NCBI GenBank assembly: GCA_029261195.1
Contig: JAJDBU010000031.1
Span: 1-42,594, forward strand
Source of the DNA: Nitrospirota bacterium
GTDB taxonomy: Bacteria > Nitrospirota > Nitrospiria > SBBL01 > JAADHI01
Direction: 5' to 3'
Length of the DNA: 42,594 nucleotides
The notes beneath the pieces are model-generated. The model had not been told where the DNA came from. It searched no databases and was given only the letters and a program-made list of their open reading frames with translations. Shown one piece after another: positions 125 through 31,308 of this stretch (the stretch's first letter is position 1; the number at the start of each line of letters is the position of its first letter). Both the position numbers and the translations under genes were made by a program.

Positions 125-973
125 TCAGCAAGCCCTAATTAAAGGCTGATATCCCGATTGATAGTTCGGGAACTTAAAAACGTACCCTAGTGATTTGATT
201 CGTTCATTATGGCATCTTTTGTTTTGCGAATGTGCTCTGCCGTTTTTTCCTCTGGCTCCATCCCCGACCTTCATTTGCTTAGACAACCATGAGATCACTT
301 CATGCAAGGGAGCCGGTTCATCATCACTTGCCAGATAACACTGTGCCAATGATTGTCCGGCTAATCGTCGCTCAAATAAAAAGGCCAAAATCCCTGCACA
401 ATCTTCTTGATGAATACGGTTAGTGTAATAAGGGGGGTCGGATTGAATGGCTTCTTTGTTGTGTGCGATACGGAGCAATCGTTCCCTGCCCGGACCATAA
501 ATACCGGAAAAGCGGACGATGACATTCTGTCTGTTTTCAGCGAGGATACGCTCTTCCGCCCGACAGAGAATTTGTCCCGTCCTTGAGTCCGGTTCAGTCA
601 CAGAGGATTCATCTACCCACTCGCCTCGATTTTGTCCGTAAACACGGGTGGATGAAATAAAAATCCAATGGGCTTGTGCCTGATGTCTGGAAAAATAGGC
701 CAAAAGGTTTTGAATGCCTGCTTCATAAATGCTGCGGTAATGCACCTCGTCCCGTTTGTCGGGGGCGATGGCGAAAAAGACTTGCTCAAAATCCGAATCC
801 AAATTAGAGAGATCTTGAGGCAAGGTGACATCTGCCAGAAAGGTCAACATTTGAGGACTTGGATTGATTGGAGGCGTCCGTCTCAAACCTACGACCACAT
901 GTCCCTTTTGAATCAAGATTTTTGCCAGACGCCCACCAATATCTCCCGAACCGACAATGAGAATTTTCGCCAT
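125..973 (-). CDS. NAD(P)-dependent SDR-family epimerase/reductase, YeeZ-like
   Basis: A 282-residue cytoplasmic protein of the extended short-chain dehydrogenase/reductase superfamily. The N-terminus holds a dinucleotide-binding beta strand and glycine loop (ILIVGSGDIGGRLA, residues 4-17). SSTRVYG in mid-protein supplies a Ser/Thr-Tyr pair typical of SDRs, followed by IVRFSGIYGPGR. The C-terminal stretch ending KFPNYQSGY resembles the YeeZ/NAD-epimerase group. The substrate cannot be read from sequence. It is the last gene of a three-gene minus-strand operon, starting 3 bases after the thioesterase, and a hairpin terminator follows. The family assignment is firm; the reaction is unknown. Confidence 0.8.
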   Translation of the reverse strand: MAKILIVGSGDIGGRLAKILIQKGHVVVGLRRTPPINPSPQMLTFLADVTLPQDLSNLDSDFEQVFFAIAPDKRDEVHYRSIYEAGIQNLLAYFSRHQAQAHWIFISSTRVYGQNRGEWVDESSVTEPDSRTGQILCRAEERILAENRQNVIVRFSGIYGPGRERLLRIAHNKEAIQSDPPYYTNRIHQEDCAGILAFLFERRLAGQSLAQCYLASDDEPAPLHEVISWLSKQMKVGDGARGKNGRAHSQNKRCHNERIKSLGYVFKFPNYQSGYQPLIRAC

Positions 974-976
974 TTT

Positions 977-1489
977 TCAATCCGACTCCAACTCGATCTC
1001 ACCCAATAGTCGTCGCCAATTATCGGGAAGTTGATCGATCCCGGCAATCATCCTGAGCTTCTCCGATGCTAAGGGTACAACTTTGAAACGACCTGCCACC
1101 AATAGAATACCTTCTTCGTTATGGGCCTTGGTATGAACAACAACGGGTTTCCATGGTTTTTCTGCCTTTGGAATGGAGGCCGAAAGTGTCAAGGGCAATG
1201 CTGCATGGGCAGGTTGCAAGTACTTTATCTCTGCCGAACGAAGAATCCAGGCGGCCTTCATTTCGGGTATCAAAATCGTCGGTGTCCAGGAGGCAAGGCA
1301 GTCAAGCGCGGTATAAACGGCACCGCCATGGGTAATGCCGGGGAAACCGATCATGTGAGCCTTGGGTTTAAAATGTCCGATCAGGCGCTCCTGATCACCA
1401 TCCCGGAAAACTTCAATTTGAAGACCATGCTCATTTTCATGTCCACAGCCGAAACAATCATTACCCGGCAAAACAAGTTTGTTGATCAT
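977..1489 (-). CDS. PaaI-family hotdog-fold thioesterase
   Basis: A 170-residue protein with the hallmarks of the PaaI/YbgC-like hotdog acyl-CoA thioesterases: an N-terminal CFGCGHENEHGL segment, then GFPGITHGGAVYTALDC with the HGG motif on the central helix, where the catalytic acidic or polar residue usually lies. Such enzymes hydrolyse acyl-CoA thioesters in the cytoplasm. The CFGCG segment is common in a subgroup that includes human THEM4-like and many bacterial PaaI proteins. It sits in the middle of the minus-strand operon, 23 bases after the methyltransferase gene and 3 bases before the SDR gene. The acyl substrate is unknown. Confidence 0.82.
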   Translation of the reverse strand: MINKLVLPGNDCFGCGHENEHGLQIEVFRDGDQERLIGHFKPKAHMIGFPGITHGGAVYTALDCLASWTPTILIPEMKAAWILRSAEIKYLQPAHAALPLTLSASIPKAEKPWKPVVVHTKAHNEEGILLVAGRFKVVPLASEKLRMIAGIDQLPDNWRRLLGEIELESD

Positions 1490-1512
1490 CTCCGGTCCAT
1501 TTGAAGAATTCT

Positions 1513-2298
1513 TTAATGCATGTGCTTTACCATGACAGAAACGGTAGCATAATAAACCGCCCAGTAAGTGCCATCTCTTGCGTTCTTGATATAGTTTTCT
1601 ATGTCTTCTTTGTTTGCCTCACCGCTGGCAATATATTTTTCACGCAAAGCCGTCGCTGAGGCAGCCATGACCTTTGCGGCTGGAGAATTGCCCCTGCAAA
1701 AATGAAGGGCTGCATCAAGATGAATGATATCATATCCGGTTTTCATCAGTTTATCAGGCAGGTGGATGCCGTACATCGGGTCGAGGTCCATATCGAGAAA
1801 CATTTTACAAATGGCCTGATTCACTTTTTGCACACATCGGTCAGCAGTTGGATTCAGGATCAGCGCCGAGTTGAAATCAGGCTCTTCTAATACGACGCAG
1901 CCCCCAGGTTTCAGGTGGTGCCGGATTCTCTTCAGAATCTCCAGGTCATGTTTGTTATGAATCAAGACATAACGGCAGTGGATCAGATCAAACTGTCCTT
2001 CGAGACTGGCCTCTAAAATATCCCCTTGAATCACCTCACAGTTAATCCCTTTCAAGACTTGAAGGTGTGTTGTGTTCTTGTCGATTGCGACAACCTTTCC
2101 GGAAAGCCCGACCTGTTCAGACATCCAAAGCGCGATGGAACCGGCCCCGGCTCCGATTTCCAAACAACGCCATCCTTCTTTGATCCCGGTTTTTTTGAGT
2201 TTCGCAATCGTTGCCGGATCAAAGGCAGACTCAATCATGCGAAGACGTTGCATTTCCTTGTCTTCCGTCTGCCTTTCAAAAATGTATTCGCTCATCAT
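1513..2298 (-). CDS. Class I SAM-dependent methyltransferase
   Basis: A 261-residue protein with the Rossmann-type SAM-binding core. Motif I is CLEIGAGAGSIA; the acidic motif II is VVAIDKN; a later strand reads QGDILEA; and LKPGGCVVLEEPD is the post-core strand typical of UbiE/Methyltransf_11-25 families. The C-terminal 80 residues are less conserved and probably form the substrate lid. The coding start at 2298 begins with two in-frame ATG codons and a GAGAAG ribosome-binding site lies a few bases upstream. It is the first gene of the minus-strand operon with a thioesterase and an SDR protein. This combination suggests modification of a small molecule or lipid, but no substrate can be named. 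Confidence 0.82.
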   Translation of the reverse strand: MMSEYIFERQTEDKEMQRLRMIESAFDPATIAKLKKTGIKEGWRCLEIGAGAGSIALWMSEQVGLSGKVVAIDKNTTHLQVLKGINCEVIQGDILEASLEGQFDLIHCRYVLIHNKHDLEILKRIRHHLKPGGCVVLEEPDFNSALILNPTADRCVQKVNQAICKMFLDMDLDPMYGIHLPDKLMKTGYDIIHLDAALHFCRGNSPAAKVMAASATALREKYIASGEANKEDIENYIKNARDGTYWAVYYATVSVMVKHMH

Positions 2299-2431
2299 TT
2301 TCTTCTCTATTTTTCCTCATAAGGCGGGCAGATAGGCATCGCTTTTTTATGTGGTAAACTGATATTCGTGTAATGTGGACGCATCATACGAATATGTTTA
2401 ATGAAAGTCTTAATATGATTTTTAAAAAAAC

Positions 2432-2456
2432 ATAGTATCTTATTCGCGCATACTAT
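2432..2456. repeat. Inverted repeat ATAGTAT/ATACTAT upstream of the endoglucanase gene
   Basis: Two 7-bp arms (2432-2438 and 2450-2456) are perfect reverse complements separated by 11 bases. It lies in the 322-base AT-rich gap between the divergent methyltransferase and endoglucanase genes, a plausible place for an operator, but no regulator is known. Confidence 0.4.
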
Positions 2457-2469
2457 ATCATCCCTCCAT

Positions 2470-2499
2470 TGTATAGATGAAAAATGTATAGATGAAAAA
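2470..2499. repeat. Exact tandem duplication of a 15-bp unit
   Basis: The unit TGTATAGATGAAAAA occurs twice back to back (2470-2484, 2485-2499) in the leader region of the GH8 gene. Nothing else was recognised in the intergenic stretch 2299-2620 beyond this and the inverted repeat at 2432-2456. No convincing -35/-10 pair could be fixed. Confidence 0.85.
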
Positions 2500-2620
2500 C
2501 GGTTTTTGACACTCTATCACTCATATGCACTTAGCAGAGGCAGGTGGGGCATAGAGAAAACCGTTTTGCGGAAAAGACTCAATGATAGAACAGAAACACA
2601 GGTACGAGGCTATTTTTGTA

Positions 2621-3742
2621 ATGCGTTTCTACTATTTTCTCCTGCTCCTCACAATGATCGTGGTGTTGCCGGGAACATCTATGGCAAAAAGTAAATCAAA
2701 CTGGCCTCTGTGGGAGTCCTACGCATCTCGATTTATTCAGGAAGATGGTCGGGTCATAGATATCAGTGGTGGTTTTTCTACCTCAGAAGGTCAATCCTAT
2801 GCCTTATTCTTTTCCTTGGTTGGCAACGACCGGGAACGATTTAAAACAATTCTCAAATGGACGGAAGAAAACCTGGCGCAGGGTGATTTATCGGCTCGCT
2901 TACCCGCTTGGCATTGGGGGAGAGCAGAAAATGATGAATGGAAAATTCTGGACAGCAATTCGGCGAGTGATTCAGATCTTTGGATGAGCTACACATTAAT
3001 CGAAGCGGCACGTCTGTGGGAAAAGCCAGCCTATGAACGCTTGGGTCAAAAACTTCTGGAACGCGTAATCAAGGAGGAAATACGGCATCTTCCCGGTCTT
3101 GGCATTATGTTATTGCCCGGTCCGGAAGGGTTCTGTCTAAAAGACGATGTATGCCGCTTGAACCCAAGCTATCTACCGATTCCAATATTGAGGCGCTTTT
3201 CACAATACTATAAAAGTGACTTATGGGATAGACTGGCCGAAAACACGGTACACATGATTCAATCGACCAGCAAGGAAGGCATTGTTCCCGATTGGGTGGC
3301 CTACAAAAACGGACAGGGATTTATTCTCGACCCTGTTGAAGGGGATGTCGGAAGCTACGATGCCATACGGGTTTATCTCTGGGCGGGCATGCTCGATCGA
3401 AAAGACCCACTTTCATCACGCTTGCTATCGGCAATATCGGGTTTGGCAAGGTCTATGAACACCCGGCAATCCATTCCAAGAATATTGTATGGCAATACCG
3501 GCGAGGCGGAAGGGATTGGCCCGGTGGGTTTTTCAGCAGCAGTACTTCCTTACCTCGAATTACTCGGAGAACAGAGCCTTTTGGATCGGCAAATTGTGCG
3601 TGTACGCAATGATTTAATGAAGGGCTTACTTGGGGGAAACCCTGTTTACTATGATCAAAACCTAGCCCTGTTCGGCACGGGTTGGTTTGAAAATCGTTTC
3701 TTTTTTGATGCGCAGGGTCGGCTTATTCCAGATTGGCATTGA
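2621..3742 (+). CDS. bcsZ: Glycoside hydrolase family 8 endoglucanase, BcsZ-type periplasmic cellulase
   Basis: Family GH8 enzymes such as BcsZ cleave beta-1,4-glucan in the periplasm and are normally part of bacterial cellulose operons. With the ATG at 2621 the protein has 373 residues and starts with a hydrophobic signal peptide (FYYFLLLLTMIVVLPG) that probably ends near SMA. An upstream in-frame ATG at 2582 would add 13 residues; I prefer 2621 because the two key residues then fall at Glu56 (motif TSEGQSYALFF) and Asp247 (motif SYDAIRVYLWAG), very close to the acid/base pair Glu55/Asp243 of E. coli BcsZ. LPAWHWG and the DSDLWMSYTL motif are also typical of the family. The other recognisable cellulose gene, a BcsA-type synthase, is about 32 kb away at 35815-38181, which is unusual. 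No BcsB or BcsC is present. Confidence 0.85.
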   Translation: MRFYYFLLLLTMIVVLPGTSMAKSKSNWPLWESYASRFIQEDGRVIDISGGFSTSEGQSYALFFSLVGNDRERFKTILKWTEENLAQGDLSARLPAWHWGRAENDEWKILDSNSASDSDLWMSYTLIEAARLWEKPAYERLGQKLLERVIKEEIRHLPGLGIMLLPGPEGFCLKDDVCRLNPSYLPIPILRRFSQYYKSDLWDRLAENTVHMIQSTSKEGIVPDWVAYKNGQGFILDPVEGDVGSYDAIRVYLWAGMLDRKDPLSSRLLSAISGLARSMNTRQSIPRILYGNTGEAEGIGPVGFSAAVLPYLELLGEQSLLDRQIVRVRNDLMKGLLGGNPVYYDQNLALFGTGWFENRFFFDAQGRLIPDWH

Positions 3743-3912
3743 TGGCGATCTTAAAATCAGAAGTCCAATTTACGATTCAAAAGGCTTCATTCCCTACGTA
3801 AATCACGCAACATTAGCCTGAGCCCCTGATCAAGAATATCTTTCAGTCTACTTTTCCCCTTAGTATTGTTTTGCCATGAGAGTCTGTCCGCGAGAGGCTC
3901 AGGAGAGGCTAA

Positions 3913-3941
3913 TTGACAGCCTATCTGGGGGGCTGTATCAT
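3913..3941 (+). promoter_or_regulatory. Sigma70-type promoter of polA
   Basis: TTGACA (3913-3918) and TATCAT (3936-3941) are separated by 17 bases, so only one position differs from consensus. The predicted start of transcription is about 25 bases before the polA ATG. An inverted repeat ACAGCC-N9-GGCTGT (3916-3921 and 3931-3936) overlaps the spacer and could be an operator or chance. Confidence 0.7.
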
Positions 3942-3971
3942 CACCGCGCCCTAAAATAACTGAGCTTTTTG

Positions 3972-6629
3972 ATGCCTAAAACATTCTACATTCTCGACGG
4001 AACCGCTTACATCTACCGAGCCTTTTACGCGATTCGGGAGCTGTCAAACGCTAGGGGTCTTCCGACTAATGCGGTTTACGGTTTCACAAAGATGTTACAA
4101 AAAATTGTCGAGGAGAAAAAACCGGACTACATTGCCATCGCCTTCGATGCGAAAGGCCCGACATTTCGTCACGCTTTGTACGACGGATATAAAGCCGACC
4201 GTCCTCCCATGCCCGATGCCCTCTCTCCTCAGCTCCCCTACATCGACAAGATCGTTGATGCCTTCCGCATTCCCACTTTTCGAGAGCCGGGGCTTGAAGC
4301 CGATGACCTGATCGGCACCCTGGCGAAAAAGGGGACGGCAGCCGGTCTCGAAGTCGTGATTGCAAGCGGCGATAAGGACATGTACCAACTGATCGGAGCC
4401 CAGGTTTCTGTCTACGATCCGATGAAAGAAAAAGTTTTCACAACTGAGACGATTGAAGAGCAGTTCGGCATCAAACCCGATCAAATTGTTGAGATGATGG
4501 GTCTGATGGGAGACAGCTCCGATCAGATCCCCGGTGTGGCCGGCGTTGGGAAAAAGACGGCGATGCAGCTCATTCACACTTTCGGCAGCATCGAAAACCT
4601 ACTCAGCCACCTGAAAGAAGTGAAGAAGCCGAAGTTGCGGGAGAAGTTGGAAGCAAGTAAAGAGATCGCCCGTTTAAGCCTTGAGTTGGTGACCATCCGA
4701 ACAGACTGCGACATCCCCTTTGCGCTGGATTGTTTTATAAGCCGTTCTCCCGATGTCGAAAAACTCCGCCCACTCTGCGAAGAATTGGGTTTCTCGACCC
4801 TCTTAAAAACCCTTATTCCGCCGCCCGGGAAGCCAAAGCAAAGGAGGCAGATCGGCCGGATTGTCGATGCCGCAGGCTTTTCAGCTCTCATCTCCGGGAT
4901 CACAGAAGGACAAGCCATCACACTCAGGCCCTTCACAACAGGAGAGGGTGCAATGGACACCCAGCTAAGAGGCATCGCATTGGCAACCCACACAGGCAAG
5001 GCGATATATCTCCCCCTTCAAAAGGGCGAGGGACTTCCCGCATCCCTCAAAACATTGCTGTCATCCGGCAGATCCCCCGTTTATGGTCACGGCCTCAAAA
5101 TACTGTTGACGATATTGAAACGGCAGGGCATTGTGTGTCGGGCACAGCTTTACGATACGGAAATCGCCCACTATCTGCTCAACCCGACACGGAGAGGCCA
5201 CTCCCTGGAGGCGGCTGTTCTTGAATACCTGCCTGAAGATTTGAATGAAGGCATTCATGCTCAGCAGGCACAGGGGAATCTTTTTGCCGAAAGCCCTGCC
5301 TCAATGGAAATTGTCTCCCCGGAAGTCGTCTCGCCGAGACTCTGCCGGGAGGCTGCACTCATTCTTCCGCTTTCGGAAGTCTTAAGCGAAATGCTGGCGT
5401 CCCAGTCCTTGAACACCCTCTTTCGGGATGTAGAGATGCCGCTGGTCTCCGTCTTATCCGATATTGAACAATGTGGCGTCAAAATCGACCTCCAGGCCCT
5501 GAAGGCCATGTCCACTACGCTTGCAGAAAAACTGGCATCCATCACAGCAAGGATCTATGAACTTGCGGGGCGTGAATTCAACATCAATTCACCCAAACAA
5601 CTGGCCGACATTCTCTTTGTTCATCTCGGGCTCACACCGATCAAAAAAACAAAAACCGGCTATTCAACCAATGAAGAAGTCCTCAAAAAACTGTCCCTCC
5701 ACCATCCTCTGCCGGAGGAGATATTAAACAGTCGACAGATCACCAAGCTCAAATCGACCTATATTGACGCCCTGCCAAAACTGGTGCATCCGGAAACCGG
5801 TCGTGTCCATACCCAACTCAATCAAACCATCACCGCTACCGGCAGGCTGTCATCCAGTGATCCCAACCTCCAAAACATCCCGGTGCGGGGGGAAATGGGC
5901 CGACACATTCGAGAAACCTTTATTGCCGACGAAGGATATTACATCCTCTCCGCTGACTATAATCAGATCGAACTGCGTATTCTGGCCCACCTTTCTGAAG
6001 ACCCCCAATTGATCGCTGCCTTTCAAAGCGGGGAAGATGTTCACACACAAACCGCAGTCGAACTCTTTGGTCTGTCAAAAGATGAGATCACTCAGGAAAT
6101 GCGCCGAGCCGCAAAAACAGTGAATTTCGGAATCATCTACGGCATCAGTCCCTTTGGCCTTTCCAACAACCTGGGTGTTTCAATGAAAGAGGCTAAACGC
6201 TACATCGATCTCTACTTTGAGCATTTTCGCGGGGTGAAACATTTTTTCGAGAAGACCCTGATTACGGCAGGAAAAACGGGCTATGTGACCACCCTTTTTG
6301 ATCGCCGCCGCTTCATTCCCGAGCTTGCGAGTATGAACAGTTTTACTCGCGGGATCGGAGAACGCCTGGCGATGAATACACCTGTGCAGGGCAGCGCCGC
6401 CGACATCATTAAGTTGGCAATGATCAAAGTGGCCTCCTGGATGACTGATTCAAAGCTCAAAAGCAAAATGACTTTACAGGTACATGACGAACTCCTTTTT
6501 GAAGTGCCGGAAGAAGAGCTCACCATAATGAAAGAGAATGTGACGCGTTTAATGGAAGAAGCTGCCAATCTGAAAGTCCCGCTGATCGTTGATGTCGGTG
6601 TCGGGGCGAATTGGAGCGAAGCGCATTAG
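3972..6629 (+). CDS. polA: DNA polymerase I with an inactive proofreading domain
   Basis: A family A polymerase of 885 residues used in Okazaki fragment maturation and repair. The N-terminal 5'-3' nuclease domain (about 1-290) has the expected aspartates in ILDGTAYIYRAF, GLEADDLIGTLA and SGDKDMYQL. The middle domain (about 290-490) corresponds to the 3'-5' exonuclease but lacks the metal-binding DxE: the position reads AITLRPFTTG, and the later catalytic Asp region reads GHGLKILLTIL. The polymerase domain has motif A (DYNQIELRILAHL, Asp662), motif B (RRAAKTVNFGIIYG) and motif C (QVHDELLFE, Asp839). A TTG codon directly precedes the ATG in frame; I chose the ATG at 3972. The gene has its own promoter and no operon partners. 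Confidence 0.96.
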   Translation: MPKTFYILDGTAYIYRAFYAIRELSNARGLPTNAVYGFTKMLQKIVEEKKPDYIAIAFDAKGPTFRHALYDGYKADRPPMPDALSPQLPYIDKIVDAFRIPTFREPGLEADDLIGTLAKKGTAAGLEVVIASGDKDMYQLIGAQVSVYDPMKEKVFTTETIEEQFGIKPDQIVEMMGLMGDSSDQIPGVAGVGKKTAMQLIHTFGSIENLLSHLKEVKKPKLREKLEASKEIARLSLELVTIRTDCDIPFALDCFISRSPDVEKLRPLCEELGFSTLLKTLIPPPGKPKQRRQIGRIVDAAGFSALISGITEGQAITLRPFTTGEGAMDTQLRGIALATHTGKAIYLPLQKGEGLPASLKTLLSSGRSPVYGHGLKILLTILKRQGIVCRAQLYDTEIAHYLLNPTRRGHSLEAAVLEYLPEDLNEGIHAQQAQGNLFAESPASMEIVSPEVVSPRLCREAALILPLSEVLSEMLASQSLNTLFRDVEMPLVSVLSDIEQCGVKIDLQALKAMSTTLAEKLASITARIYELAGREFNINSPKQLADILFVHLGLTPIKKTKTGYSTNEEVLKKLSLHHPLPEEILNSRQITKLKSTYIDALPKLVHPETGRVHTQLNQTITATGRLSSSDPNLQNIPVRGEMGRHIRETFIADEGYYILSADYNQIELRILAHLSEDPQLIAAFQSGEDVHTQTAVELFGLSKDEITQEMRRAAKTVNFGIIYGISPFGLSNNLGVSMKEAKRYIDLYFEHFRGVKHFFEKTLITAGKTGYVTTLFDRRRFIPELASMNSFTRGIGERLAMNTPVQGSAADIIKLAMIKVASWMTDSKLKSKMTLQVHDELLFEVPEEELTIMKENVTRLMEEAANLKVPLIVDVGVGANWSEAH

Positions 6630-26868: not shown

Positions 26869-27264
26869 ATGTCGCCAGAAAAAGAGACTGACCCGCAAGC
26901 ACGCCCTCCAACTAAACCAGAGCCATTCTCCACCGACAGAGATAGCCTGGAAAAAGAGGTGGTCATTCATACCTTTAAAGGGAGTGGTCCGGGGGGGCAG
27001 CACCGGAATGTGACTGATTCCGGTGTGCGCATCGTGCATGAAGCCTCAGGTCTGGTCGTCACTGCAACGGAATCCCGTTCTCAGGGGAAAAATAAAGAGA
27101 AGGCCTTTGAGCGGTTGATCAAGCGTTTAGAGGAACTGAACCAGGTCGAGAAACCTCGCATTCCTACAAAAAAGCGACGGGGAGCCCGCGAGAAAGAGCT
27201 TCAAATCAAACGGCAGACCCAAGGGAAAAAGCGCCTGAGACAAAAACCGAAACTAGAGGAATAA
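26869..27264 (+). CDS. GGQ-domain peptide-release/ribosome-rescue factor
   Basis: A 131-residue protein holding only the catalytic domain of class I release factors. GSGPGGQHRNVTDSGVRIVH contains GGQ (42-44), the loop that triggers peptidyl-tRNA hydrolysis. A Lys/Arg-rich tail (KKRRGAREKELQIK and onward) resembles that of ArfB and of mitochondrial C12orf65, which places itself in the mRNA channel of stalled ribosomes. No codon-recognition domain is present. AAGGGG lies 5-10 bases before the ATG. It is 9 bases after the DUF5916 gene. It is probably a rescue factor; a tRNA-Cys-like or damaged-ribosome role (PrfH) is less likely because PrfH is longer. Confidence 0.85.
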   Translation: MSPEKETDPQARPPTKPEPFSTDRDSLEKEVVIHTFKGSGPGGQHRNVTDSGVRIVHEASGLVVTATESRSQGKNKEKAFERLIKRLEELNQVEKPRIPTKKRRGAREKELQIKRQTQGKKRLRQKPKLEE

Positions 27265-27299: not shown

Positions 27300-29522
27300 T
27301 TATAAAATTTTTGGCCCAGTCGCAACAAAATTGCGATAATGGCGGTGGGCTCTTTTCATGTGCTGCCGGATTGTTTCTGCGAGCAGCCTGCTTCCTTCTT
27401 TCCAGTCTCGACGGGCAAAACCCATACGACGGGACAAAAAAATGAATTCCTCTGAAGTCTGATCCGGGAGGAGGAGGTCTCGGGCATTGCCTCGAACCAT
27501 ACGTAGTGCGTCTATCAGTTTTCTGATAAAAATGTAGGCTTTTCGCAGGTCTGTGACTGTCTCTTTCGTGAGAATCCCTTTTTTTGAGAGTCCGGCCAAG
27601 GTTTCCAATGTGTTTGTTTTCCGTAAGTCCAGATCGTCTTTTCCATAAATAATTTGCAGGTATTGAGTCAGGTATTCGATGTCGATTAATCCCCCGGAAC
27701 TATATTTCACGTTGATCTGCCCTGCCTTGACCAGCTCATTAATCTGTCTGTCTCGTAGCTCAAGGGCATTTTCTTTGTCCCAGGCTGCGCCGCTGTAGAC
27801 AAATTGGTCTCGCACCGCCTCGCATTTTCGTCCAAGCGCCCGGCTTCCCGCGATGGTTCGCAGTTTTATCAATGCCTGTCTTTCAAAAGCAGCCGCTTTG
27901 CCCTCCTGGTGGTAGTACTTTGTAAACTGAGCGAGTGAGAGGGCGGGCGGGCCGGAATTCCCGTAGGGGCGCAGACGGGTATCAATCGAAAAAATCCCTT
28001 CCTGTCTTGCTGAAATAAAATCAATGATCTCTCGGGTTAAAAGTTCAAAGTATCTTTTATTTTCAATGATTTTTGGCCCAAGGGTTTGTCCCTTGCTTTC
28101 ATAAATAAAGAGCAGTTCAATGTCGGAGGCATACCCTAATTCCCGGCCCCCGAACTTTCCGAATGCACAAATGGTGAAAGCAGTGACTTTCTCTGTATGA
28201 CCTTCCTGTATGGCTGGACCGTAGATATTTCTAAGCGACTTATTACAAATGCTCAAGGTGGCTTGAATTACCACCTCCGCAAGCTCAGAAAGTGCCACCG
28301 AGAAGTCGTCCAAACTAGATTTTGCTTCGAGCATGTGCCGCATATCGATTCTAAACATCTCTTCGTCTTTGTAGTGATTGACAATTCGGCGCGCCTCATC
28401 ATGATCTGTCACTGAGCGAAGCCTTCTCTGAAGTTCCTGAGTCATCGCTTTTTTCCCGATTTGCATCGGTTTTCTTTTGAGGTCTTCCAGAATGGGAAAG
28501 AAATGATCAAAACGGATTCTTAAAAAATCTTCCCACAAAAAATCACTGGTCCCGAAAAAACGGGCCAAAAGGTTCATCGTCTCTTTTTTCTTTAGGAATG
28601 TAATGAGGGAGTCTGAGTCCTCCATGTCCAGGATTTTATCCAGGAACTGGTCGAAGTGGGTGATCGCCTTCATCGGATCGGGCGCGACATTTAAAAAATG
28701 AATGAATTGTTTGATCAGTATGGCAGAAATTTCAAGTGCCCTTTGCTCGCTTTCCTTCTTAATTTTTTTGCCGTGCCGGTTTGAGATGTAGAGACGATTG
28801 TGGATTGTCCCGTCAAGCGGGTCGATTTTTATTTTATGAATGTAGATGTTTCGCATTGCCAGAGCATTTGAAAAGGCATAGAGGAAAGCCGGGGTGTCTT
28901 TCCCATGAATGCTGAGAATCGTCCATTGTTTTGAATGGTGGTTGTCAAAGCGAATTTTGATGGGTGTGAGCAATCCGGCAAAGGGGAGTTTTTTCTCAGT
29001 GTCTTCTGCTTCAAGTTTTCCGATATTTGCAATAAGACGATGGTTGACTTTTTTTCGAGCCTCACGAAAATGCCCTTTTTCGAGGAGCATCACAAGGTTC
29101 AGGAGTTCGGCTTCGAAGGATTTTTGAGTGGATGCATCAAATGGCTTGTTCCCTATCAATTTGACCTCAAACAGGTCAATAATTTTTTTTCTTCCAGGAC
29201 CGAGACTAAAGGTCTGAACCGATCCGGCCTCAATATCGAGGCCGAAGGAGGCGAGCAGTCCACAGAGGATTGAAAAGGCCGAAAAATAATCATAGGCAAC
29301 GACGACGATCTTGTACTGCTTCCCACCCACTTTCATGACGCGCAGGTGGACGGGTCGGCTCGGTGTGAGAATTTGTGAAAGATTGAGGTGCTCGGCGATT
29401 TCGTCTGGAGAACAGAGTAGGAGGTAATAACGGTTCAGTTCGCTCAGAATCTCCCGAAGTTGATCGGGCTCGAAGCCTTCGCATCTTGATTTAATTTGGT
29501 CTTCTAAAGATTTTATAAGCAT
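27300..29522 (-). CDS. ACT-ACT-GlnE fusion: AT-C-like glutamine synthetase adenylyltransferase half
   Basis: A 740-residue protein. Residues 69-120 (KIVVVAYDYFSAFSILCGLL) and 198-250 (TILSIHGKDTPAFLYAFSNA) look like two ACT domains, arranged as in the C-terminus of GlnD. A helical region with FGTSDFLWEDFL, typical of GlnE, follows. The nucleotidyltransferase domain reads GKFGGRELGYASDIELLFIY, resembling the adenylylating half (AT-C) of GlnE. Asp467 is kept, but the second carboxylate of the DxD pair is Glu469. DTRLRPYGNSG (Asp514), GGLIDIEYLTQYLQ and a GlnD_UR-type helical tail complete it. Normal GlnE has two such units in about 950 residues; here there is one, with ACT domains in place of the other. 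Likely role: nucleotidylylation of glutamine synthetase or a PII-like protein, with amino-acid sensing. The target is inferred. Confidence 0.8.
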   Translation of the reverse strand: MLIKSLEDQIKSRCEGFEPDQLREILSELNRYYLLLCSPDEIAEHLNLSQILTPSRPVHLRVMKVGGKQYKIVVVAYDYFSAFSILCGLLASFGLDIEAGSVQTFSLGPGRKKIIDLFEVKLIGNKPFDASTQKSFEAELLNLVMLLEKGHFREARKKVNHRLIANIGKLEAEDTEKKLPFAGLLTPIKIRFDNHHSKQWTILSIHGKDTPAFLYAFSNALAMRNIYIHKIKIDPLDGTIHNRLYISNRHGKKIKKESEQRALEISAILIKQFIHFLNVAPDPMKAITHFDQFLDKILDMEDSDSLITFLKKKETMNLLARFFGTSDFLWEDFLRIRFDHFFPILEDLKRKPMQIGKKAMTQELQRRLRSVTDHDEARRIVNHYKDEEMFRIDMRHMLEAKSSLDDFSVALSELAEVVIQATLSICNKSLRNIYGPAIQEGHTEKVTAFTICAFGKFGGRELGYASDIELLFIYESKGQTLGPKIIENKRYFELLTREIIDFISARQEGIFSIDTRLRPYGNSGPPALSLAQFTKYYHQEGKAAAFERQALIKLRTIAGSRALGRKCEAVRDQFVYSGAAWDKENALELRDRQINELVKAGQINVKYSSGGLIDIEYLTQYLQIIYGKDDLDLRKTNTLETLAGLSKKGILTKETVTDLRKAYIFIRKLIDALRMVRGNARDLLLPDQTSEEFIFLSRRMGFARRDWKEGSRLLAETIRQHMKRAHRHYRNFVATGPKIL

Positions 29523-29555
29523 TTTTAATGAGTTAGTCTAGATAACTTAAAGTAC

Positions 29556-29587
29556 TTTATCTCTCTTTGAGACAGAAGAGAGATAAA
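29556..29587. repeat. Perfect 12-bp inverted repeat between the divergent GlnE-type genes
   Basis: TTTATCTCTCTT (29556-29567) and AAGAGAGATAAA (29576-29587) are exact reverse complements around an 8-base centre (TGAGACAG). It lies 34 bases from the minus-strand start and just upstream of the -35 box of the plus-strand promoter at 29602. No T run follows in either direction, so an operator is more likely than a terminator. Confidence 0.75.
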
Positions 29588-29601
29588 TGCCGAACTTCAA
29601 A

Positions 29602-29630
29602 TTGCGCTCCAATTTTTCAGAGCGTATAAT
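29602..29630 (+). promoter_or_regulatory. Sigma70-type promoter for the AT-N-like gene
   Basis: TTGCGC (29602-29607) and a perfect TATAAT (29625-29630) with a 17-base spacer. The predicted transcript starts near 29637, 22 bases before the ATG at 29659. This promoter lies inside the longer reading frame that starts at 29587, which argues for the shorter protein. Confidence 0.7.
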
Positions 29631-29658
29631 GCTGAAAATAATACTCGGGAGTCAACAG

Positions 29659-31308
29659 ATGGTAAAAGACCTGATACTTGCACCAAAGCTGAATAAGGAT
29701 GAGGTCGCCATCCTTCTCAAGCCTTACGGATTTAAGGATGTCGATAAAGCCGATGTCAATATTCAGTCGATCGCACAATCGGTCGCGGATGATATTGATA
29801 TACGAATGCGCTTTGCTGAGATTCTAGAGGATGCCCTGTCTGCCTTTTCGGATTCCCCCTGTCCTGATCAGGCGCTCAATAATTTTGAACGTTTCTGCAA
29901 AACGACCTTAAGCAAAAGCAGCCTATTGTCATTTCTCCAGGACGCGCCGCTGACTCTGCGTCAATCCGCCAGAATATTTGGCGGCAGCCCTTTTCTCTCT
30001 GATATTCTGATCAGAAATCCTGAGTATTTTTATTGGGTTTTTGGAGAAAAGCAACTCAGGCAGTCAAAAAACAAGGCCTCTTATAAAAAGGAATTAGGGC
30101 AGGCCTTTCGCTTGTTGAAGAATAAAAATAGCCATCTAGACATGCTCCGTATTTTCAAGCGGAAGGAAATCCTTCGCATCGGGGTGCGAGATCTCCTGGG
30201 TGAAGCCACAGTAAAAGAGACTTTAAGAGAGTTGTCGAGTTTGTCTGATGTGTTAATTGAACGTGCGCTTTGGATCTGTGAGAAGGGGTTGCGACAGAAA
30301 TACGGGCGGCCACTAATCAAAGATGAGACAAAGCTTTTGACAGAAAATGGATTTACTGTTATAGCGCTTGGAAAGTTGGGCAGTCTGGAGTTGAACTTTA
30401 GCTCTGATGTCGATTTACTCTTTGTTTACGCTTCCCGTTTAGGCCTAACTTCCGGTGTGACTCATGCCGGAAACAACAGACCGGCGCAGGGTTTGCCCGA
30501 TAAAAATTTTGAGGCTCAGAAAGATTTAAGCGGTCAGATTGAAAATGTCGAGTATTTTAACCGTCTTTCAAAAGAGATTGCCTCCGTATTAAATGACAGT
30601 AGTGAGCAGGGCTATGTTTACCGCGTTGACCTGCGTTTGAGGCCGGAAGGAGATGCAGGTCCAATCGCACTGTCATTGGAGGCTTACCGCCGGTATTACG
30701 ACAAACGCGGAGAGGTTTGGGAACGTCTGGCCCTCTTGCGTGCACGCGCTGTGGCAGGAGATTGCCAGCTCGGGCAGTCCTTTTTAATGATGGCTTCCCA
30801 TTTTGCGTACAAACGGCCCTTTGAGCGACAAGGACTGGATGCCGTAAAAGACTGCAAAGAAAAAATCGACAAGAAAGTCAGCCTAAAAGGTGAAATGGAG
30901 ATCAATGTAAAGTTAGGACTCGGAGGCATCAGAGAAATTGAGTTCATCATTCAGTCTCTTCAGCTTTATTTTGGTCGAAATGATATCAGCTTGCGAAAAA
31001 TAAGGACGACGGATGTTTTAAAACGTTTGACCATAAAAAGACATCTCTCTTCTAAATCAGAATCAGTTTTGTATGAAGCCTATTTGTTTCTGAGGGATCT
31101 TGAAAACAAACTTCAGATGGTGAATGATCATCAGACCTACTTGCTTCCAAGCGATCCGGGCGAAGTTCGGAGGTTTGCGCTCAGACTTGGTTATACAAAT
31201 TCAGAGGCTGTATCTGCCTCGGACCAGTTGAGAGATGATTATAAGTCCCACACAGGGAAAGTCCACGAGATCTTCCTTAATCTGTTTTATCCCCAGAAAA
31301 AAAAGTAG
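29659..31308 (+). CDS. Single-unit GlnE protein: AT-N-like (deadenylylating) half
   Basis: A 549-residue protein with one GlnE unit. ARIFGGSPFLSDILIRNPEY is the helical entry motif of GlnE. The nucleotidyltransferase motif LGKLGSLELNFSSDVDLLFV (Asp250, Asp252) and YRVDLRLRPEGDAGPIALS resemble the N-terminal, deadenylylating half of GlnE, as does YYDKRGEVWERLALLRARAV. GGIREIEFIIQSLQL lies in the GlnD_UR-type domain. The frame is open from an ATG at 29587, but a promoter overlaps that stretch and GGGAG lies 7 bases before the ATG at 29659, so the shorter start is chosen. It is divergent from the AT-C-like gene; together they would rebuild GlnE as two proteins. priA follows after 17 bases. Confidence 0.85.
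   Translation: MVKDLILAPKLNKDEVAILLKPYGFKDVDKADVNIQSIAQSVADDIDIRMRFAEILEDALSAFSDSPCPDQALNNFERFCKTTLSKSSLLSFLQDAPLTLRQSARIFGGSPFLSDILIRNPEYFYWVFGEKQLRQSKNKASYKKELGQAFRLLKNKNSHLDMLRIFKRKEILRIGVRDLLGEATVKETLRELSSLSDVLIERALWICEKGLRQKYGRPLIKDETKLLTENGFTVIALGKLGSLELNFSSDVDLLFVYASRLGLTSGVTHAGNNRPAQGLPDKNFEAQKDLSGQIENVEYFNRLSKEIASVLNDSSEQGYVYRVDLRLRPEGDAGPIALSLEAYRRYYDKRGEVWERLALLRARAVAGDCQLGQSFLMMASHFAYKRPFERQGLDAVKDCKEKIDKKVSLKGEMEINVKLGLGGIREIEFIIQSLQLYFGRNDISLRKIRTTDVLKRLTIKRHLSSKSESVLYEAYLFLRDLENKLQMVNDHQTYLLPSDPGEVRRFALRLGYTNSEAVSASDQLRDDYKSHTGKVHEIFLNLFYPQKKK

Follow-up and report, generated by a model that had tools for sequence, protein, structure and literature searches.

The stretch of DNA analysed here, referred to as the window, comprises 42,594 nucleotides of a Nitrospirota bacterium (assembly GCA_029261195.1, contig JAJDBU010000031.1) and contains, head-to-head and separated by a short spacer, two open reading frames (ORFs) that correspond to the two halves of glnE (Table 1). 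GlnE is known from textbooks as an enzyme with two heads, whose opposing activities lie on a single chain and are governed from a single regulatory centre. In Escherichia coli, its C-terminal unit (AT-C) adds adenosine monophosphate (AMP) and its N-terminal unit (AT-N) removes it, and both are switched by the regulatory protein PII and its uridylylated form, PII-UMP (PMC12409994). Both ORFs of the window exceed the curated Pfam cut-offs for PF03710 (GlnE; residues 318–568 of the minus-strand protein, E 1e-43, and E 2e-61 in the plus-strand protein) and for PF08335 (GlnD_UR_UTase), while the full-length equivalog PRK11072, with a cut-off of 487 bits, is not reached by the two halves (207 and 325 bits). 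The two units do not share a polypeptide, being encoded by two genes on opposite strands. Moreover, no full-length glnE was found in a whole-genome search of the source genome (3.04 Mb, 99.07% complete), where the two proteins of the pair were the only ones carrying PF03710. The original prediction, made from the window alone, had proposed precisely this split and had expected no normal two-unit glnE elsewhere in the genome, and in both respects it stands.

The assignment of the minus protein as the AT-C half and of the plus protein as the AT-N half, also part of that prediction, is supported by domain trees, profile scores and a published class residue. A first tree included the nucleotidyltransferase units of full-length GlnE from other Nitrospirota classes, Pseudomonadota and one actinobacterium, together with the split halves; in it, the plus proteins formed one clade beside AT-N and the minus proteins formed one clade on the AT-C side, with a long stem (0.89). 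The actinobacterial rows were left out of a second tree because both halves of that enzyme clustered together and had an odd composition, and this second tree separated AT-C and the minus proteins from AT-N and the plus proteins with a Shimodaira–Hasegawa-like approximate likelihood ratio test (SH-aLRT) support of 99.7. A recent, class-specific duplication, in which both halves would be copies of one unit, was rejected by the approximately unbiased test (p-AU 0.006). With profiles built from full-length enzymes alone, all 17 minus proteins scored better on AT-C, by 10–41 bits, and all 18 plus proteins on AT-N, by 46–94 bits. Finally, residue N169 of E. coli GlnE is essential for AMP removal, and the AMP-adding unit usually has Gly (G697) at this position (PMC4454073). 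At the equivalent position, Asn is present in 30/30 plus proteins, and 32/32 minus proteins share the Gly of E. coli AT-C; in the full-length AT-C units of other classes this residue is variable, being other than Asn in 21 of 22.

The minus protein, hereafter ACT-AT, carries an additional N-terminal module that resembles the regulatory end of GlnD, the PII uridylyltransferase/uridylyl-removing enzyme. By hhalign, its residues 44–264 align over 201 columns with the tandem-ACT C-terminus of GlnD in its entirety (probability 99.3, E 7e-21), against a probability of 0.3 for the AT region of the same protein used as control, and positions 676–916 of the NCBIfam GlnD model PRK05092 match residues 6–264, reaching into the helical segment that precedes the ACT domains. 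The AlphaFold2 models have a mean predicted local distance difference test score (pLDDT) of 83 for the whole protein and 88 for the module alone, and contain two beta-beta-alpha-beta-beta-alpha units, both of which show the beta-alpha-beta-beta-alpha ACT fold in these predicted structures. Foldseek matches include plant ACT-like domains, and the best solved structures are the ACT domains of the 180-kDa large glutamate dehydrogenase, threonine deaminase and SerB, enzymes that are otherwise unrelated and have the fold alone in common. The GlnD-like fusion had been predicted, with ACT domains at residues 60–260; the fold is recovered there, but the GlnD-derived part begins earlier, since residues from about 6 to 57 correspond to the pre-ACT helices. 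ACT-AT as a GlnD paralogue was rejected, since the protein lacks the HD domain, its AT part is of the GlnE type, and it reaches only 66.6 bits against an equivalog cut-off of 519 bits.

Table 1. Features of the split glnE pair (window coordinates; residues refer to the protein encoded by the indicated strand).
Feature	Coordinates	Strand	Basis
ACT-AT gene: GlnD-type tandem ACT module and GlnE AT-C (putative adenylylating) half, 740 aa	27300..29522	-	Pfam, NCBIfam, hhalign, AlphaFold2
AT-N gene: GlnE putative deadenylylating (adenylyl-removing) half alone, 573 aa	29587..31308	+	Pfam, trees, profiles, class residue
Intergenic region between head-to-head genes, 64 bp	29523..29586	.	no sigma-54 site, no convincing promoter
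Pre-ACT helical segment, residues 1-57, like the part of GlnD that links HD to ACT1	29352..29522	-	PRK05092 match, AlphaFold2 helices 2-50
ACT domain 1, residues 58-148	29079..29351	-	hhalign, AlphaFold2, Foldseek
ACT domain 2, residues 189-277	28692..28958	-	PF24931 190-264, hhalign, AlphaFold2, Foldseek
Nucleotidyltransferase motif GKFGGRELGYASDIELLF, residues 455-472: G463 (AT type), D467, E469 replacing usual Asp	28107..28160	-	alignment
Third catalytic carboxylate, D514, IDTRLRP motif	27981..27983	-	alignment
C-terminal helical domain PF08335, residues 601-732, AT-C type GGLIDIEY motif	27327..27722	-	Pfam, alignment
Nucleotidyltransferase motif GKLGSLELNFSSDVDLLF, residues 262-279: N270 (removal type), D274, D276	30370..30423	+	alignment
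Third catalytic carboxylate, D348	30628..30630	+	alignment
C-terminal helical domain PF08335, residues 434-567, AT-N type GGIREIEF motif	30886..31287	+	Pfam, alignment

The catalytic carboxylates of both halves are conserved. In the plus proteins, N270, D274, D276 and D348 are kept in 30/30, and in the minus proteins D467 and D514 are kept in 32/32. In place of the second Asp of the D-x-D pair, ACT-AT has Glu (E469; codon 28116–28118) in 32/32 aligned fusions and in 80/80 loci, whereas all AT-C units of the full-length enzymes compared have Asp at the equivalent position, so that this Asp-to-Glu change is, in these alignments, a mark of the ACT-AT clade. Since a carboxylate is kept at this position, it is plausible that ACT-AT is catalytically active despite its DxE motif.

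The split extends across a whole class. In a phylum sample of 296 genomes, of which 229 gave a match (104 Nitrospiria and 125 from other classes), the fusion occurs in 102/104 matched Nitrospiria genomes, versus 0/125 of the other Nitrospirota classes, and its carriers include Nitrospira (with N. moscoviensis NSP M-1), members of Candidatus Manganitrophaceae and further Nitrospirota, organism and class names being those read from the contig titles. Both halves are present together and lost together in nearly all genomes, some Nitrospiria having neither, and Great Lakes Nitrospira have been reported to lack glnE (PMC9239080). Where sampled, the glnE of the other Nitrospirota classes is a single ORF, mostly of 930–1080 aa, with two PF03710 units; this places the origin of both split and fusion inside the phylum, probably on the stem of Nitrospiria, and the best explanation of these sequences is that the ancestor of the split was an ordinary two-unit glnE like that of the other classes. 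A full-length GlnE from one of them (locus L150, 1073 aa) is the nearest relative of the AT-N gene, with 41% identity over about 545 aa and the same helical segment ahead of the nucleotidyltransferase, but it is unsplit and has no ACT domains. At that sister-class locus, glnA is followed directly by glnE in the same orientation (3901–5352 and 569–3790), with a nadE-like gene beyond. No standalone ACT gene that could represent a precursor of the fusion was found beside full-length glnE in 20 loci of the other classes. Coverage beyond the phylum consisted of a single contig scan, of which the 80 best hits were kept, 79 titled Nitrospirota or Nitrospira and one titled Nitrosospira, and of a plasmid collection, which contained ordinary GlnE alone and no fusion. 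The contig titled 'uncultured Nitrosospira' carries a Nitrospira-type fusion and probably belongs to a mislabelled bin. No description of a split or ACT-fused GlnE was found in the open-access literature, although an account in a subscription journal is possible. The extent across the class, the Asp-to-Glu change in AT-C and the pre-ACT GlnD segment were all absent from the original prediction.

The two genes are adjacent and on opposite strands in 20/20 Nitrospiria genomes read in detail, and never co-directional. Their orientation varies, being head-to-head in four families (f1, f5, f6 and f13) and tail-to-tail in five (f7–f11). At five tail-to-tail loci, the 3' ends overlap or touch, as in a local inversion that keeps adjacency. 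Since f7–f11 are tail-to-tail, the class does not consistently keep a divergent promoter common to both genes, and neither divergence as the essential arrangement nor the earlier idea that the two activities are set by expression ratio is supported as a rule for the class; the constant adjacency supports a functional pair. In the window, the 64-bp intergenic region contains no match to a sigma-54 nitrogen promoter, and its sigma-70 matches are too weak for use, with no convincing promoter among them; translation of AT-N possibly starts at Met25 (29659), the start site of its relatives, in which case this region would be wider. The flanking genes vary and, among those compared, priA follows AT-N only in the family of the window. 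A short RF-1 domain protein (ArfB-like, with a GGQ motif) adjoins the pair at 26869–27264, and in several (four) Nitrospira genomes glnD lies about 10 kb from it.

The remainder of the nitrogen cascade, which was to be looked for according to the original prediction, is present in the source genome. A canonical, complete glnD (a frame of 874 aa) exists separately from the fusion, seven PII-family genes were found, the best one with the T-loop YRGAEY, and GlnA contains DKNLYDL around the adenylylation-target Tyr. We take the T-loop Tyr of PII and the NLYDL Tyr of GlnA to be the modified tyrosines, as is well established for their E. coli counterparts. The partners expected of a functional GlnE, namely GlnA with its target Tyr, PII and GlnD, are therefore all encoded, and it is domain identity, conservation and this cascade that the sequences display directly. 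The PII-family genes of this 3-Mb genome are distributed over five contigs, one of which carries three such genes within 6 kb. The glnA gene follows a nadE-like gene here as well, and a second glutamine-synthetase-like gene without the NLYDL motif (locus L030, 1156–2523), located beside an aldehyde dehydrogenase, probably encodes a ligase of the gamma-glutamyl-polyamine type.

We consider it likely that the two opposing activities of GlnE exist in this bacterium as two separately controlled proteins, with the regulatory tail of GlnD placed on the one that adds AMP (the writer). The catalytic directions, GlnA as the substrate and regulation through the ACT module are inferred. The plus gene would encode the deadenylylase (the eraser), which would take AMP off the Tyr of GlnA by phosphorolysis, and the minus gene the adenylylase, in which the pre-ACT helices and the two ACT domains would occupy the former place of AT-N. 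Since no chain links writer and eraser, separate control would be needed: in the most probable scheme, the writer would be turned on through the ACT module by unmodified PII, a nitrogen metabolite or both, and PII-UMP would act on the eraser, at the same GlnA site. The simplest reading would then be the cascade of E. coli, except that GlnE is divided and a GlnD-type tail is attached to the writer. As in E. coli GlnE (b3053; PDB 1V4A and 3K7D; PRK11072), to whose units both halves are homologous, the class-specific residues (N169-type in one half, G697-type in the other) and the catalytic carboxylates are present, with PF03710 plus PF08335 in each half, but here there are two genes on opposite strands, ACT domains on AT-C, DxE instead of DxD and sub-cut-off equivalog scores. 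With GlnD, ACT-AT shares the pre-ACT segment, the two tandem ACT domains and the nucleotidyltransferase superfamily, but it has no HD domain, its ACT module is N-terminal rather than C-terminal and its catalytic part is of the GlnE type.

Several observations weigh against this interpretation. The minus half scores consistently better on AT-C, but by a modest number of bits, and the exact point at which the minus clade joins the AT-C side is not fixed by the second tree, while its long stem and the invariant Glu would allow a changed chemistry or substrate. Furthermore, the near-invariant Gly of the ACT beta1-alpha1 loop coincides with the ligand site (PMC3173338), and this Gly is retained in just 1/32 fusions in ACT1 and 2/32 in ACT2, although it is present in the ACT2 domains of all 14 GlnD proteins compared. 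Other positions of the module (YDYF..F..CGL and DTPxFLYAFxNAL) are nearly invariant among the fusions. The module is therefore a pair of ACT domains that is derived but strongly constrained. The earlier proposal of amino-acid sensing on the adenylylating half is weakened in its simple form, glutamine included, and classical amino-acid binding by the module is uncertain; the tail might respond to a metabolite, to PII or to the partner half, or it might sense no more than its own dimerisation.

The same pattern of conservation lends itself to another explanation, which could well apply even though we lean away from it, namely that the module binds no amino acid and is a structural or docking part, for dimerisation or for binding of PII or AT-N, that replaces the lost tether, the two halves acting as one complex. 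The loss of the ligand-site Gly beside otherwise nearly invariant positions would fit such a role, as would the constant adjacency of the genes, as with the subunits of a complex. However, genes that are never co-directional are unusual for obligate complexes, and ACT1 of E. coli GlnD likewise lacks the Gly, so that its loss need not abolish sensing. A variant in which the writer itself reads a metabolite that thereby shuts off glutamine synthetase, with the sensor moved from GlnD, possibly without PII and beside an independent eraser, and works through its DxE active site, is put forward only tentatively. It seems unlikely that ACT-AT now nucleotidylylates a different protein, such as one of the seven PII homologues, leaving AT-N to reverse glutamine synthetase adenylylation alone or as a relic. 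The long stem, the altered catalytic pair and the number of PII family members would agree with such a change, but a conserved deadenylylase with intact N/D/D/D makes sense only beside a glutamine synthetase adenylylase, for which the fusion is the sole AT-C candidate in the source genome, the two halves come and go together in nearly all genomes, and GlnA retains its target-Tyr motif. An artefact of assembly or of a frameshift in an otherwise normal glnE, in whose favour nothing was found, can be dismissed, since the arrangement, with its halves on opposite strands, recurs in over 100 genomes, among them single-contig assemblies and that of N. moscoviensis NSP M-1.

The preferred interpretation, of a divided GlnE with a GlnD-type tail on its writer, suggests that the nitrogen switch has been rewired throughout an entire class of nitrifiers. 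These environmentally central bacteria, which include nitrite oxidisers, complete ammonia oxidisers and manganese oxidisers, lack the GlnE tether and bear a GlnD sensor module on one of the two heads. The class would thereby offer a natural separation-of-function experiment, in which each activity, the form of PII that acts on it and its effector could be assayed apart, and what each half of GlnE senses would become directly testable. Moreover, the reading of nitrogen control in Nitrospira would change, as the presence or absence of glnE is currently scored as that of one gene (PMC9239080).

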